DNA of 33,736 bases from Pseudobutyrivibrio ruminis (GTDB taxonomy: Bacteria > Bacillota > Clostridia > Lachnospirales > Lachnospiraceae), in the NCBI GenBank assembly GCA_015057315.1, contig SVER01000033.1, positions 1 to 33,736 on the forward strand, given 5' to 3'. Position 1 is the first letter of the stretch. Every line of letters begins with the position of its first letter. Positions 25,908 through 33,736 of this stretch are shown one piece after another. Both the position numbers and the translations under genes were made by a program. The notes beneath the pieces were generated by a model that was not told where the DNA came from, did not search any database, and saw nothing but the letters and a program-made list of their open reading frames with translations.

Positions 25908-28589
25908 TTAATCTATGTAGTATATGTCGTCAGTAAGACCAATTTTTTGTCTTTGTTCCTGAATTTTATTAGCCAATTCGTCAAGTGTAACCGCTTGAAG
26001 ATCAAATGAGTTAAAGCAATCAATATATGTCATATAATTGTCAAGATAATCCTTATCTACCTTATAAATATCCACTCCATACCCATCTGTTGGTAGCTCA
26101 TCAGCAAATTCCATTAATCCCAAGCCCTTAGTTGGAAGATAATAGGTATTTTCCTTATCCTCGGTGTAGATGTCTTCTCCAAAGCAAATTTCTTCATAAC
26201 ACATACAATAATCATCTGGCCAATCAACTTGTACTTCAGAACTACCATCATTCACAAATGTACAATTTCCATGGTACCAAGTATGATATTGACCGTCCTT
26301 ATCTATATATGAAAAGCTGTATGAACTATTACCTGCCCCACCGGAACCTGAATCATACATTAACCCATTAAAATAATATATGTCATATCCACGTGTTAAT
26401 GATGATATATCCCGAGGAGCATAGCAGGTACGAAGTTCGCCATCATAATTTTTGATTATGTAATTATATGTATTATTTGAATCATAAAGGGTACAATTGA
26501 ATTTAAAAGAGGCAAGCATCTCATATTGACCATCTTTTCCTAAATCCAGGTACTTCACGTAAACATCATCATAGCTACATCTTTCACGATCAAACTCATC
26601 AAGATTATTATACAAAACATTAATCAAATCATTAATATTATACTTTGTTCCATCAGCTATATAAGAACAATTATAAATAGTTAGCTCACCTGTGCCATTT
26701 AAAAATGAGTCATACAAACTCTTTGTCTCTGAATCCAAATCAATTTCATCAATAGACTTAGGAAGCGTATAATCCACATGGCGTCTAATCTTTGTTCTGC
26801 TGCCATCTGCTGCAACATGGGTGCAGACTGATGCATCATGTTTTGGATCCTCCTTAATCATAGGAGAATCATCAAACTCTAAATGATAATACAATCTATT
26901 CGTATCTTCTTCTGACAATATAGGAATCTTTGTACCTTCGACTATTCCAGCACCTTTTAATGATTGAGCTAATAAAAATGCAGCGGAAAAATCCCCATCG
27001 TCAGTAACGTAAAAATCAATCAATGGACCTACAGCCTTAGCTTCCCAGCAAGCCGTTTCATACCCTGGTACAACATCTAGCTGCTCAGCAGATATTTGGA
27101 AATAGAAATCTACTTTAGGCGCAATTAGTGGGAACTTCGCTACTTTCAAAGTAGCCTTAGGAGCCACACCGCCACTAAATGTAACAGTAGCATTCCCATC
27201 ATCCAATCCCTCATCTTCAAAATTAGTTACTATTTTATGTTCTTCATATTTTTTAGAATAGCCATTCTCATCAATACTTATTACTGTTCCAATTCTATCT
27301 TCTGTACTTATTGCTATTCCGATATTTTCCATTTCCAGGTCCGCATGGATTCCGAGTGCAAGCTCTATTTCAGCAATTCCTAAAGGAACTGGAATAGATG
27401 GCATATCAACTGCAAAATTAACACTAGCATCACCCATTTTTAAAACAGGTTTATACAGACACTCATAGTAAAGACCATCAGACTTGTTTGCATAAGCATA
27501 TAGCTGAAAATCTTCTAAAGACATTTCGATGGTGACTGATTTTTCACGCTCTATTTCTTTACTGTTACCTTGTTTCTTAAGGCTTTCGACATAATCTTTT
27601 GTCACATTGTATGTTTCACAAAGATAAGAATAATCCTTGCCACCGATTTCAAAACCAGTAACCTTGAACTCAACATCTTTGCCATCAGATGAATTATTTT
27701 TTTTAGTTAGCTCACCTGTTACTGTAACTGTAGTTTTGATTCCCTTATCCTTCTTTGTAGATACAAAACTATAATTTGGCACATTTGAAGAATCTAAAAC
27801 CTGTGCACCATCCTCAGTATTAATGGCATCAACATTAGACCAGTCTACATAGCCTGCAACCGTATAATCAGTTAATAAATCATCCAGACTCTGTGGCTTG
27901 GTAGTCAAGACATTGTAGATATTGCCGTCACGCTTTTCAATAGCGCTGATAATACCTCCACGTAGAACACCTACAGTATCCTTGTAGATTAGCTTTTCCC
28001 CAACAGAAGGCGCATCACCCTTTATTTCAATAAGAGCCTCTTCGGTTCCATCCTCATGGCTGGTGTAATAGGTCGCTGTCCAATCTGAGCCATCTACAAC
28101 ACCTTCAGCTGCCTCATACTTGGATACAGAAACGTGATAATCCTCTATTGTAGCAAGGGCTGTAAAATTTTTAATAAGCGCCTCTGCTTGAGTGCTGCTT
28201 AAATAAGCATCTTTAAACTTCTTTGATAGAACCCCTTTCTTTTCTACAAGGTCAAATCTGGTTTCTGGAGTATCTTCGGTTCCATCCAATAGATATTCAC
28301 GGTAAGCAGGGCCAAGGCGGTCTACACCTTTAGCCACTGCATCCTTACCAGTGATTTTATTATCGGAATACTCTATAGAGTCCTCATAGTTAAAGGCTTC
28401 GTTGAGAAGTGCCATATATTCCTTTTCTGAAATAGCATCATCCTCTGAAACTTCTTCAAAAGCTACAGGCTCTATACCATCAAGAGATTCATTCCCTGAA
28501 TTGCCTTTCGCCAATATAAATCCTATAATTCCGCCAATAATTAATACGCAAGCAATTATTCCCCCGATAATAAATGGCTTATTTTTCAT
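25908..28589 (-). CDS. Large membrane-anchored extracellular protein of unknown family (893 aa)
   Basis: I do not recognise a family. The N terminus is a short basic stretch and one long hydrophobic helix (about 6-27). An IIAC sequence at 11-14 resembles a lipobox, but the helix continues past it, so a membrane anchor is more likely. The rest is hydrophilic, acidic and beta-rich, with many Asp, Tyr and Asn. Residues 30-130 include charged helices. A middle region (about 380-560) has a hydrophobic beta segment, SIPVPLGIAEIELALGIH. The C-terminal part has several Cys and two DxxxDG-type stretches (DLGKDGQYEM and DKDGQYHTW) that look like calcium-binding or tandem repeat cores. It starts 36 nt after the stop of the 1251-aa surface protein and probably shares its transcript. 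Confidence 0.85.
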   Translation of the reverse strand: MKNKPFIIGGIIACVLIIGGIIGFILAKGNSGNESLDGIEPVAFEEVSEDDAISEKEYMALLNEAFNYEDSIEYSDNKITGKDAVAKGVDRLGPAYREYLLDGTEDTPETRFDLVEKKGVLSKKFKDAYLSSTQAEALIKNFTALATIEDYHVSVSKYEAAEGVVDGSDWTATYYTSHEDGTEEALIEIKGDAPSVGEKLIYKDTVGVLRGGIISAIEKRDGNIYNVLTTKPQSLDDLLTDYTVAGYVDWSNVDAINTEDGAQVLDSSNVPNYSFVSTKKDKGIKTTVTVTGELTKKNNSSDGKDVEFKVTGFEIGGKDYSYLCETYNVTKDYVESLKKQGNSKEIEREKSVTIEMSLEDFQLYAYANKSDGLYYECLYKPVLKMGDASVNFAVDMPSIPVPLGIAEIELALGIHADLEMENIGIAISTEDRIGTVISIDENGYSKKYEEHKIVTNFEDEGLDDGNATVTFSGGVAPKATLKVAKFPLIAPKVDFYFQISAEQLDVVPGYETACWEAKAVGPLIDFYVTDDGDFSAAFLLAQSLKGAGIVEGTKIPILSEEDTNRLYYHLEFDDSPMIKEDPKHDASVCTHVAADGSRTKIRRHVDYTLPKSIDEIDLDSETKSLYDSFLNGTGELTIYNCSYIADGTKYNINDLINVLYNNLDEFDRERCSYDDVYVKYLDLGKDGQYEMLASFKFNCTLYDSNNTYNYIIKNYDGELRTCYAPRDISSLTRGYDIYYFNGLMYDSGSGGAGNSSYSFSYIDKDGQYHTWYHGNCTFVNDGSSEVQVDWPDDYCMCYEEICFGEDIYTEDKENTYYLPTKGLGLMEFADELPTDGYGVDIYKVDKDYLDNYMTYIDCFNSFDLQAVTLDELANKIQEQRQKIGLTDDIYYID

Positions 28590-28625: not shown

Positions 28626-31600
28626 TTAAAAGAACTTCTTAGGATTAATCTTGTAGCTTACCTTCTTAGTTCCTACATAATTATTCTTTCCTATAAGCTC
28701 AAAGGTAGCTGTTCCCTTCTTGTTATTCTTTGCAAAATGAGTAATCTGGTAGTTTGAAGAATTCACTGGTGTATTCTTTAAAGTAACTGTGATGTCACTC
28801 TTGGTAGGAACTACACCACTGTTTTTGTTACTGTAATCCTGGGCCTTTACTGTAACCTTCACTGAATTGATGTTGTATCCAATTCTAAAGGTTGTTGTGT
28901 AGCTTTGGCACTTTTCATAAGTACCAGTTCCAGTAATTGTTACACGTACAACTGTTCCAACAGGTACAGTGTATTTTGCATCCTTCTTAAGCTCCGCACC
29001 TGAAGCAAGCACTGTCTTTGTAGCCTTATTTTTGTATTTACCAGAAACTACAGTCTCATTTACCACATTGTAAACAACTGTAAATTCCCTATTCTCTTTA
29101 AGATTTACATTAAGTCTTGGGTTATAAACCTTAAGCTTTGGTACCCAATTGTTGGCTTTTTTTGCATAAACAACATCAGGGCAGGTTACATCAAAGGCTG
29201 TTTCAAAAGCAGCGGCCTCTGCCTCATTTGTTATGTTGTAGTAGCTTCCCTCAAGAATCTTATACACAACCTCCTTTGTGCCCTCGTACATGCTGTTGTC
29301 TTTGGCTGTGAATGTTATCTTAATCTCTGTACCAGCAGGATATTTAATGTTGGCTGGCTCCTTAAAGCTAGAGTCAGAGGAAGTCTTAACCTGATAGTAC
29401 ATTGAGTAATCGCTACTACCTAAAACTGTTCCATAATTGTCTGCAAGTGTATATGTAGCCTTCTTGTAGTTTACCTTCTTTTCATTGTAAATAGGCGCTA
29501 CAACTGTATTTGCAAAGGCTGCCACACCAGCAAGGCCTGATGCCTTGAAGTATTTATTGTAGCCTGCACTATTGATTCCATAAACTGTAGCATCTGAAAG
29601 TTTTGTCTTTTCAACAGGAACGGTAAAGGTAACCTTACCCTTGTAATTTGTCTTTCCTGTAAATGTGGCAACACAGTTCATCTTGCCAGTATTCTTGTCC
29701 TTTACAAACTTTACGCTTCGACCTGTAAGGTAAGCATAGTCAACGCATTCATTTGTTGATTTGATATGTAAATATAAATCCGATGGCTTCTTGCCCTTAT
29801 TAGCCTTTACCGCAAAGCTTGTGCTTGAAGCATTGCTATCAGAAATAGCAAGATCACCTGCTTTCTGAAGCTGAGCTAAATCTATTGGCTTAATCTCAAA
29901 CTTCTTTGAAGCTGTACCGTAATACTTTTCACCTGTAAATATAACTGTTACTGTTGCATTCTTACCTGCATTGATGTTGTTTGCATAAGTTACTGTGTAT
30001 TCTTTTGCATCAATATCAATAATCTCTTTTGCTGATTTCTTGTACTGAACAGTAATTGCTGGCTTTGCCTCAGTATCCTTCTTGTAAGTGAAGGTGGCCT
30101 GTTCAAGATTGATTACTACCTTGTTTGAAGCTAGCTTTTCAGCATTTTCAGACTTATCCTTGATAGTAAAATATTTCTTAATCTTTCCTGCATAGTTGCC
30201 TTTAAGGTTGATAACAAGGGCTGGTGCAACAAGCTTGCCTGAAGCGTTTCTCTGTTCAAAGGTTGCAGCCTTTGTATTGTTCTCGTAAGAAATAGTATAA
30301 TCTACCTTTTCTTTAAGAGCCTTCTTGTTATAATAAACCTTAATATCTTTAGATTCGAAAGTAACCTTTGAGCCAGTGAATTGATGAGTTTCAGTACCGT
30401 TCTCGACCTTCTTTCCCTTATAGGTTACAACAAACTTGTCTTCATCCTCATCGGCCTTGACTACTTCATCAATCTCCTCATCCGCCACAACAAATGTAAC
30501 GCTAGTCTGCTCACTTGTAGCTCCATCCTTTGTGGCCTTTGCTGTAATAACATACTCTCCAGCCTTGTTCAATAAAATTTCTGATTCATAATTCTGATTT
30601 GAAACAGTAGCTACACCAGAAATTGAATATGTAATTTCTGCATCCTCTGTTGTAGTAGAAATAGTCACTTTGCTATTTAATTCAGCAGGGATTTTGCCTG
30701 TAGCATCTGCCACAGATTCCTGTCCCCAAAGTGAAATTGAAGGAGCGTCAACCGTAGTAACTACAGTTGAATAAAGAGCCTCTACAACTGAGCTTGTAGC
30801 AACCTGATCTACCTTTGAGTTACTTGTAATCTCCACACCTTCCTTTGTAAACCAGCCAAGGAATGTCTTTCCTGCCGGTGGAGTAACTGTTGGAAGCTCT
30901 CCAAAAACGTCGCCCTTTACATAGCGAACTTCAGTCTTTGAAGCTGTACCACCCTTTGCATCGAAAGTGATGTTGTAAATAGGACCTTCCCACTTTGCGT
31001 AGAGGGTGATGTTGTCGTTGTATGGTGCAACATCAAGAATTCCCTTGCCGTCCTTGATATTTTCTATAGCGATAGCTGGCTTTGTAAATTTTGCATCAAA
31101 ATACCAGCCCTTGAAATCATAAAATTCTCTTGTTGGGCTTGTGATTGTATATGGGGCATCAGCCTTAGTAAAGCCTGTAGGATTAGTACCATCTACAGTT
31201 CCACCATTTAATACATATTTGATGGTATTTCTGGTAACTATTTCAGGATGTCCATAATTTCTATATTTTTTTGTTTCATTAATAAAACTTTTTAGCGATG
31301 CTTCTGTAGTTGTACCCTTATTACAAACAAAATAATCTATGCTATAAACATCGTAGAAAACTTTTCTATCAAATTTCTGCAAATTATTACCCGGAAAATC
31401 AATTGATTTAAGACCTTCAACATAATGGAACGCCCAAGGAGTAATTGCAGTAATCGAAGCAGGCATTGTAAGATTAGATGCCTCTCCTGTAAAGTTACAA
31501 AATGCAAATAGTCTTGGAAATCTTCTCATTCCTTCTGGAAGATTAACCTCTGTCAAAGTATGTTTTTTACCACTGACGGTATTATGTGAAAACATTGAAC

Positions 31601-32381
31601 CATAATAGTCGGTCCCACCTGAAAGATCTACATCTTTCGATAAAATAGTAACTGATGTAATATTTGTCGAACCAAAAGCTAAATCTCCTATAGTCTTTAC
31701 ATTTTCTGGAATAATAAGAGTAGTTAACTTTTTACATCCACAAAAAGCATTTTTTCCAATAGAAACAAGCGACTTTGGGAAGTCAACTGCTTCAAGATTC
31801 TCACATCCATAAAATGCACTATCTCCAATCTCCTTTAATGAAGTTGGAAAAACAATTGTTGTAATATCTTTGTTACTTTTGAAGGTCTCCTTATCTATCT
31901 TAGTCACACCTTCTTTTATAGTAAGAACGCCATTTTCAAGTGTATATTCATTACTTAAAGTGTTAAGAAGCTCCTCTTCGTCTGCTTCTTCCACTAAAAG
32001 TTCTTCTTCAGATACCTCTTCTTCAGCTGTCTCTTCTTCAGCTGCCTGAGAGTCTGTTGGCTGTTCGGTCACTTCACCTGCAGAAGTTTGGCTATTCTCA
32101 TTTGCAGCAGGAAGCTGGTTTCCTTCTGTAGTCTGTGTCTGGTTTCCTTCTGTAGTCTGTGTCTGATTTTCAGCTGGCACTGTACTATCTGTGCCAGGTT
32201 CTTCATTTATAATATTCTCCCCATTTTCGGTCTGAATATTAGCGTCTGTTGTGTTCTCTGTCACTTCTGTTGTTTCAGCTGATTGCTGAAGTTCTGTAGC
32301 ATGAACATCTGTCACAACAGTAGTGAAGGTCATCACTAATGCTAAGCAAAAGCTAAATGCCTTTCGCAAAGTCTTTTCCAT
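28626..32381 (-). CDS. Secreted surface protein with leucine-rich (BspA-like) and InlB-type repeats, 1251 aa
   Basis: Probably an adhesin-like or structural cell-surface protein. A signal peptide ends at about 28 (VHA). A Glu/Thr/Gln-rich low-complexity stretch follows (29-140) and includes a duplicated QTQTTEGN. LRR_5/BspA-type repeats span about 145-350 (for example SLKEIGDSAFYGCENL). Two Listeria-Bacteroides InlB B-repeat modules span about 387-465 and 469-545 (NGGTVDG and DAKGGTASK starts, FKGWY and FLGWF cores). From 550 on there are repeated Ig/MBG-like beta modules rich in Lys, Thr and Tyr, with KKYFTIKD- and KKFEIKP-type ends. No LPXTG or C-terminal helix is present, so it is released or held non-covalently. 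AGGAGG precedes the ATG. It is the first gene of a pair with the 893-aa protein, and its promoter has a homopolymer spacer. Confidence 0.93.
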   Translation of the reverse strand: MEKTLRKAFSFCLALVMTFTTVVTDVHATELQQSAETTEVTENTTDANIQTENGENIINEEPGTDSTVPAENQTQTTEGNQTQTTEGNQLPAANENSQTSAGEVTEQPTDSQAAEEETAEEEVSEEELLVEEADEEELLNTLSNEYTLENGVLTIKEGVTKIDKETFKSNKDITTIVFPTSLKEIGDSAFYGCENLEAVDFPKSLVSIGKNAFCGCKKLTTLIIPENVKTIGDLAFGSTNITSVTILSKDVDLSGGTDYYGSMFSHNTVSGKKHTLTEVNLPEGMRRFPRLFAFCNFTGEASNLTMPASITAITPWAFHYVEGLKSIDFPGNNLQKFDRKVFYDVYSIDYFVCNKGTTTEASLKSFINETKKYRNYGHPEIVTRNTIKYVLNGGTVDGTNPTGFTKADAPYTITSPTREFYDFKGWYFDAKFTKPAIAIENIKDGKGILDVAPYNDNITLYAKWEGPIYNITFDAKGGTASKTEVRYVKGDVFGELPTVTPPAGKTFLGWFTKEGVEITSNSKVDQVATSSVVEALYSTVVTTVDAPSISLWGQESVADATGKIPAELNSKVTISTTTEDAEITYSISGVATVSNQNYESEILLNKAGEYVITAKATKDGATSEQTSVTFVVADEEIDEVVKADEDEDKFVVTYKGKKVENGTETHQFTGSKVTFESKDIKVYYNKKALKEKVDYTISYENNTKAATFEQRNASGKLVAPALVINLKGNYAGKIKKYFTIKDKSENAEKLASNKVVINLEQATFTYKKDTEAKPAITVQYKKSAKEIIDIDAKEYTVTYANNINAGKNATVTVIFTGEKYYGTASKKFEIKPIDLAQLQKAGDLAISDSNASSTSFAVKANKGKKPSDLYLHIKSTNECVDYAYLTGRSVKFVKDKNTGKMNCVATFTGKTNYKGKVTFTVPVEKTKLSDATVYGINSAGYNKYFKASGLAGVAAFANTVVAPIYNEKKVNYKKATYTLADNYGTVLGSSDYSMYYQVKTSSDSSFKEPANIKYPAGTEIKITFTAKDNSMYEGTKEVVYKILEGSYYNITNEAEAAAFETAFDVTCPDVVYAKKANNWVPKLKVYNPRLNVNLKENREFTVVYNVVNETVVSGKYKNKATKTVLASGAELKKDAKYTVPVGTVVRVTITGTGTYEKCQSYTTTFRIGYNINSVKVTVKAQDYSNKNSGVVPTKSDITVTLKNTPVNSSNYQITHFAKNNKKGTATFELIGKNNYVGTKKVSYKINPKKFF
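32117..32164 (-). repeat. 24-bp tandem direct repeat, two perfect copies, in frame
   Basis: Two identical 24-nt units (32117-32140 and 32141-32164) lie head to tail inside the surface-protein gene and encode QTQTTEGN twice, with a degenerate fragment at each side. Because 24 is a multiple of 3, copy-number change would lengthen or shorten the stalk without a frameshift. Confidence 0.9.
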
Positions 32382-32453
32382 TTTAGTACATCCTCCTAAA
32401 TAATGCGTTTTCTGAAAACATTACAGTTCTCGCCGCTTTTTTATTTTAATTTG

Positions 32454-32484
32454 ATTATATACCCCCCCCATTTTTTTAAGTCAA
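32454..32484 (-). promoter_or_regulatory. Promoter of the surface-protein pair with homopolymer spacer
   Basis: On the minus strand the -35 is TTGACT (32479-32484). The spacer holds seven A (32471-32477) and eight G (32462-32469). A TATAAT box (32454-32459) lies at 19 nt, and an overlapping TATATA (32456-32461) lies at 17 nt. The leader is about 65 nt. Loss or gain of G residues would change which -10 is at the optimal distance. Confidence 0.75.
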
Positions 32485-32571
32485 CATTAAATTTAGAAGA
32501 TTTTCCAAATTGTACAGACCTGCAAAAAACACATGCTAATAAACTTCATGTTTGCGGCTTATTTTTTATAA

Positions 32572-32607
32572 TAAAAAACGAGTGAAATCCGAAGATTTCA
32601 CTCGTTT
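32572..32607 (-). terminator. Intrinsic terminator of gdhA
   Basis: A perfect 14-bp stem (32576-32589 with 32594-32607) with a TTCG-type loop is followed on the minus strand by TTTTTT (32573-32578). It lies beyond a REP-like element that separates it from the gdhA stop codon. Confidence 0.93.
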
Positions 32608-32610
32608 CTA

Positions 32611-32710
32611 CCCTCATCCGTCTGCTGCGCAGACACCTTCTTCTACGCTTCGCTCCGGTCGGCTCAAAGCAGAGGTCCACTGGACCTCTTTCGCCCCAAA
32701 AGGGGAAGGC
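32611..32710. repeat. REP-like composite palindromic repeat
   Basis: This element of about 100 bp is GC-richer than its surroundings and fills the space from the gdhA terminator to its stop codon. It contains three hairpins: GTCTGC-TGC-GCAGAC (32620-32634), AGAGGTCC-ACT-GGACCTCT (32671-32689) and CCCC-AAAA-GGGG (32694-32705). Outer CCTTC (32636-32640) matches GAAGG (32705-32709). Its ends, CCTCATCCGTCTGC and GGGGAAGGC, resemble a short interspersed repeat I recall from many gut Firmicute genomes. Here the usual CCTTC-CCC core seems split by about 53 bp of extra sequence. Confidence 0.7.
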
Positions 32711-32711
32711 T

Positions 32712-33736
<1,025 letters not shown>

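Follow-up and report, generated by a model that had tools for sequence, protein, structure and literature searches.

Homopolymeric tracts between the -35 and -10 boxes of a promoter can set the level of a surface protein by changing the spacing of the boxes. This is described for porA of Neisseria meningitidis, and likewise for fetA and opc (PMC3899988, PMC2791445, PMC3639595). In porA, successive shortening of the 11G tract to 10G and 9G reduces surface expression 2-fold and 13-fold, so that the output is graded; compared with the 11G tract, a 7A tract within the coding frame showed negligible variation (PMC3639595). Repeat number also sets the -10/-35 spacing of Haemophilus influenzae hifA/hifB (PMC3899988), but there the repeat is a TA dinucleotide in a bidirectional promoter. 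In the gut commensal Bifidobacterium breve, slippage of a G tract switches a sortase-dependent pilus, a surface structure (PMC9187656); that tract is intragenic, whereas the one described here lies in a promoter spacer. G8/G9 heterogeneity is documented for Campylobacter cgtB (PMC6437147). Among the matches listed from excerpts of the open-licence PMC literature, we found no report of promoters with poly-G spacers from Lachnospiraceae or from other commensal Clostridia. An earlier note on the present locus knew of no established example in Lachnospiraceae; our survey identifies candidates in that family by their sequence.

We analyzed a 33,736-nt stretch of Pseudobutyrivibrio ruminis DNA (the window). 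Read directly, its minus strand from 32484 to 32454 is TTGACT-TAAAAAAATGGGGGGGG-TATATAAT. The -35 box TTGACT (32479..32484) is followed by a T, a run of seven A (32471..32477), a second T (32470), a G8 tract that is the candidate slippage element (32462..32469), and TATATAAT (32454..32461), which holds two overlapping -10 candidates. TATATA (32461-32456) has a 17-nt spacer and TATAAT (32459-32454) a 19-nt spacer. The A7 and G8 spacer and both spacings are thus as the earlier note had described them, and its statement that the loss of two G would bring TATAAT to 17 nt holds by arithmetic. The final T of the -10 box is conserved and TATATA lacks it, so TATAAT at 19 nt is more likely to be the -10 box. 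A generic consensus promoter scanner with a range of 16-18 nt did not call this promoter, because the final T is missing from TATATA and the spacing to TATAAT is outside that range. The start codon is 72 nt downstream of TATAAT and is preceded by the ribosome-binding site AGGAGG (32392..32397, minus strand).

The two open reading frames that the earlier note had placed behind this promoter are both present on the minus strand. The 1251-aa protein (28626..32381) contains BspA-type leucine-rich repeats (LRR_5, E 8e-35) and Listeria-Bacteroides repeats (Flg_new). Together with a signal-like N-terminus, recognized by eye, these domains bear out its description as an LRR protein of surface type, which is presumably surface-exposed. 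The 893-aa partner (25908..28589) has an N-terminal hydrophobic segment by eye and no Pfam or NCBIfam match at the thresholds used. The gap between the two is 36 nt, from which we infer that they are probably co-transcribed. On the other side of the promoter lies the 3' part of a minus-strand gene that is open at the window edge (32712..33734) and that we take, by eye, to be glutamate dehydrogenase-like. A hairpin followed by a T-run (32576..32607, minus strand, position read from the sequence) is situated 3' of this gene. The stretch 32555-32720 folds with a z-score of -5.8, a value for all 166 nt that includes other hairpins, and a simple terminator scanner did not list the hairpin at 32576..32607. 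It is a probable terminator that would separate the promoter from the gene before it.

The window therefore shares with porA a G homopolymer between the -35 and -10 boxes and a likely surface protein downstream, the exposure of the 1251-aa protein being predicted. The systems differ in that porA belongs to a Gram-negative host in which switching and graded expression are proven, whereas for the window they are predicted. Its host belongs to the Lachnospiraceae, its G8 tract touches the double -10 region TATATAAT, and the gene encodes an LRR protein.

We assessed whether the tract itself is unusual. A G8 run is expected 0.24 times per window and was present in 17 of 100 dinucleotide shuffles of the window, and the 3.42-Mb genome from which the window derives has runs of G8 or longer at five places. 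The run by itself is within chance expectation and is no evidence of function. The notable part is its placement between two conserved promoter boxes, which has to be judged by comparison. We did not find GGGGGTATAAT in the window's own genome, and an exact search for the promoter in the genome-contig collection, from which the window's own or very near records were possibly excluded, gave no match. Elsewhere in the same genome, on contig C28, three further G8/G9 runs (L002:439-447, 2475-2482 and 2519-2526) flank a 569-aa open reading frame that is transposase-like by eye.

A protein search of 61 genomes recovered one close orthologue of the 1251-aa protein, 85% identical, in the same-genus genome G015; the next matches were at most 40% identical. 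In G015 the LRR gene likewise adjoins the orthologue of the 893-aa partner. Its promoter reads TTGACA-GAAAAAAATGCAGAGG-TATATAAT, so that G015 retains the boxes, A7T and TATATAAT; TTTAGGAGGATGTAC at the ribosome-binding site is identical. In place of G8 it has GCAGAGG, which makes the spacer 1 nt shorter than that of the window. Upstream of the promoter, G015 and the window align poorly. These comparisons suggest constraint on the promoter boxes and show no conservation of the G run; the run would have been either gained in the lineage of the window or lost in G015. The loss of one G in the window would produce a spacing of 18 nt, that of the G015 orthologue. None of eight paralogue upstream regions from the window's genome, G015 and G020 contains a G8 run within 140 nt. 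Upstream of one LRR-protein paralogue in G020 (L196, contig C15), we observed TTGAAT, a G-rich spacer with GGGGTGGGG, and TATAAT, an arrangement that resembles an interrupted tract.

We then searched for similar promoters using the pattern TTGACN{4,17}G7N{0,5}TATAAT in 397 genomes of Lachnospiraceae (henceforth, the family). The pattern occurred at 31 places in 24 of the 397 genomes, the window's place included. The reversed control pattern had no match in the same genomes, and a control with C7 for G7 matched four places in four genomes (G7 versus C7, Fisher p 1.4e-4). With the window's own genome excluded, 23 of 396 family genomes matched, compared with 5 of 397 genomes in a phylum sample (p 4e-4), which also had one reversed match. 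Genus g85, chosen because it contained a match, had 17 places in 14 of 77 genomes and no reversed match. In the window's own genus there is no clear excess, since a looser G6 pattern was found in 3 of 29 genomes and its control in 2 of 29.

A G8 version of the pattern recovered at least 118 stretches from the species-genome collection; by a visual count of those listed, 37 titles refer to Clostridia and 20 to Bacilli. Other hosts among the listed matches include Saccharibacteria, Streptobacillus, Helicobacter, Blautia luti, Coprococcus comes and some environmental Chloroflexi. Eleven viral contigs carry the same architecture, and on one viral contig (L183:5051-5083) a G11/TATAAT promoter precedes an open reading frame with hydrophobic segments. 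We define the class by TTGAC, a spacer, G7 or more at most 5 nt from TATAAT, and a downstream gene with a signal-like start. The window locus (L029) has all of these features, with a gap of 2 nt between tract and TATAAT that results from its TATATAAT double -10. One metagenome-assembled genome (MAG) of the Bacilli has a size of about 1.0 Mb (G842); its isolate name, Lapin, presumably indicates a rabbit host. It contains 20 class promoters (L273-L292), and more may exist because several copies are at contig ends. Nineteen of the 20 are closely similar and L276 less so, and their tracts comprise 14 of G9, five of G10 and one of G11. A downstream gene could be called for 14 promoters of this MAG; all 14 encoded proteins have signal-like starts, and many share SYALW by eye.

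A link to genes with signal-like starts is also seen across the class. By a crude hydrophobicity rule, which is not SignalP, 97 of 121 downstream genes (family and wider matches listed) have a signal-like N-terminus. The corresponding numbers are 83 of 310 for background open reading frames, 10 of 32 for genes on the opposite strand and 5 of 23 for genes that follow ordinary consensus promoters. The class counts omit the places (36 of 158 and 34 of 155) for which no downstream gene could be called. The proportion is 21 of 26 for family loci alone and 11 of 16 for genus g85. A fifth to a third of the downstream genes do not fit the rule.

We examined the anatomy of the class promoters. Among the family and wider matches listed, tract and TATAAT are directly adjacent in 117 of 158 places. 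G9 is the most frequent length (72 of 158), with 33 tracts of G8, 29 of G10 and an overall range of 7-15, among listed matches that come mostly from a scan for G8 or longer. The G8 of the window is below this mode. In the deduplicated family and genus loci, we counted seven tracts of G7, six of G8, nine of G9, seven of G10 and two of G11. Of the 122 listed places that have a gene, 62 show a spacing to TATAAT of 18-19 nt and 11 a spacing of 17 nt, whereas 17 nt is the most frequent spacing of the ordinary consensus promoters in these loci (13 of 28). This casts doubt on the idea that TATAAT at 17 nt would be the ON state, because the G-tract promoters cluster at 18-19 nt. A spacing of 19 nt may be common in the class because a G run is possibly more compact than average B-DNA.

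The total spacing is less variable than random pairing would produce. Its variance is 3.6, versus 6.2 when the pre-tract length and the tract-plus-gap length are paired at random (0/5000 permutations; rho -0.40), so that total promoter spacing appears to be under selection. For pre-tract length against tract length alone, rho was -0.14 (p 0.08; variance test 16/5000) over all 155 places listed and -0.32 (p 5e-4; variance test at most 1/5000) over the 115 zero-gap places.

Tract length was compared between homologous class promoters. It differs in 17 of 38 pairs and is equal in 21, where both members were required to have at least 7 G, a rule that excludes complete losses of the tract such as that in G015. 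The 38 pairs mix orthologues with paralogues, and one pair consists of identical viral contigs. In the same pairs, pre-tract length differs in 9 of 38, and the 20-nt flanks contain a gap in 6 of 38 pairs on the upstream side and in 9 of 31 on the downstream side. Per base, with the tract taken as 9 nt, the tract changes about 3 to 6 times as often as its flanks. One MAG contributed 15 of the 38 pairs, 7 of which differ, and 10 of the 23 pairs from elsewhere differ. The clearest variant pair is found within one genome (L050/L059), where G9 plus TG corresponds to G7 and the neighboring sequence is nearly identical. We dropped another candidate allele pair (L037/L171) that has the same -35-side spacer and G10 versus G9, since the flanks differ.

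Other tracts are kept at constant length. In genus g85, one orthologous promoter has G9 in all of a set of four species, and two others, each from a pair of species, have G10 and G9, respectively. In the four-species set (L319, L320, L325 and L333), G9 and the 19-nt spacing are kept though adjoining bases change, which argues for selected spacing or a fixed element. Scans of the viral contigs for length variants of three promoters, which represent four of the 11 contigs, returned only contigs already known. When one class promoter was searched as DNA across its genus, the longest matches were intragenic, and no orthologous promoter was discernible.

Tracts of G8 or longer also occur within genes. 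Two Lachnospiraceae genomes, G421 and G332 (L233-L272), have 42 and 20 such places. We read all 20 listed places in G332, and in G421 21 of the 42 listed places together with one tract beside an assembly gap. Of the tracts read (G8-G12), 14 of 22 in G421 and 11 of 20 in G332 fall within a sense frame that is 150 or more residues long; with so many inside sense frames, we rejected the idea that the G8 tracts of these genomes are promoters with a degenerate -10 box. Pfam searches of 26 tract-bearing frames assigned 14 to acyl-, methyl- or sugar-modifying types and 7 to other families, and found nothing for 5. The 14 comprise three MBOAT proteins, five methyltransferases, two hexapeptide transferases, WcbI, a sugar-transfer ATP-grasp protein, a sulfatase and a GDSL protein. 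Judged from their frames, the two tract sets are candidate coding phasomes. At L261 (G332, contig C18), the halves of an MFS_2 transporter are in different frames (62-901 and 759-1559). The two frames overlap at a G11 tract, and the locus has the appearance of an intragenic tract caught in a natural OFF state. The window's own genome has a G9 tract (L001:1001-1009, contig C27) inside the open reading frame of a WcaF-like polysaccharide O-acetyltransferase. The other two frames there stop after 1 and 4 codons, a layout that would suit an intragenic ON/OFF contingency locus. Given the intragenic tracts in G421, G332 and the window's own genome, contingency tracts of the slippage type seem to extend beyond promoters in this family.

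Our preferred reading, which we hold with moderate confidence, is that the window promoter is a member of a recurrent class of promoters with poly-G spacers, works like porA and uses slippage to tune the LRR surface protein and its partner. It would be a sigma-A-type promoter with a slippage-prone G8 tract in the -35/-10 spacer, flush against the -10 region. The gain or loss of a single G in replication would alter the spacing of the boxes, which is 19 nt to TATAAT at G8, and the change in spacing would lead to more or less transcription of the LRR gene and its partner in individual cells. The class as a whole (TTGAC, spacer, G7 or more, TATAAT) appears mostly to precede genes for secreted proteins or lipoproteins in Lachnospiraceae and other Bacillota. 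By analogy with porA, a graded tuner is more likely than an ON/OFF switch; slippage at the window tract, its effect on expression and a graded output are all predictions from the comparison. The proposal of the earlier note that poly-G slippage could switch or tune the LRR pair is thus supported in part. The conserved boxes, the LRR gene with its partner, the recurrence of a G-specific class and the tract differences among homologues speak for it, and the tractless close orthologue and the fixed length of some g85 orthologues speak against it.

We weighed this reading against three others. The G-rich spacer could be a fixed element, structural or recognized by a protein (rigid and A-form-like, or providing a constant G at -14/-13), with a selected length and no switching. 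The constrained total spacing, the clustering at 18-19 nt, the G9 or G10 lengths kept across species and the equal tracts in 21 of 38 homologous pairs would all be expected of such an element. A tract range of 7-15, with lengths of 9-11 among closely similar promoters of one genome, and the higher rate of change per base in the tract than in its flanks are less easily reconciled with it, as is the orthologue of the window itself, which keeps the boxes without the tract. We consider a fixed element unlikely. We think it rather unlikely, too, that the spacer of an ordinary constitutive promoter simply drifted to G8 in this lineage, with no role for the run. The frequency of G8 in the window shuffles makes this conceivable, as do the already G-rich spacer of the orthologue (GCAGAGG) and the absence of a clear excess in the window's own genus; the four C7 places in 397 genomes indicate that spacer runs can arise, though uncommonly. 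Drift of this kind would hardly produce 31 G7 places against 4 for C7 and none for the reversed pattern in the same family sample, nor tie the class to genes with signal-like starts, among them the window gene.

The boxes might also not form a working promoter, or the run might be an assembly error, with the real start elsewhere. The silence of the consensus scan leaves room for this. We regard it as very improbable because another species retains the boxes, A7T and TATATAAT, which lie 72 nt before a start codon, with a conserved ribosome-binding site downstream and a probable terminator hairpin upstream.

Beyond the poly-G tuning that we favor for the window promoter, a more general picture seems to us, by a narrow judgment, the probable one. 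Commensal gut Bacillota, including Lachnospiraceae, would vary secreted proteins and lipoproteins through widespread, so far undescribed porA-like poly-G promoters. In some genomes these would form multi-locus phasomes, the 20 promoters of the 1-Mb MAG being an example, and they would operate alongside intragenic G tracts that the same family has in genes of surface-polysaccharide type. The G run may shift the spacing optimum of such promoters to 18-19 nt, and the LRR gene and its partner in the window would be a single-locus member. The pattern of this class in commensal Bacillota can be searched for in genomes, and tract lengths can be read by deep sequencing. If this picture is true, the surface antigens of gut commensals would be heterogeneous within clones, which would bear on immune recognition, on phage adsorption and on how metagenomes are read.
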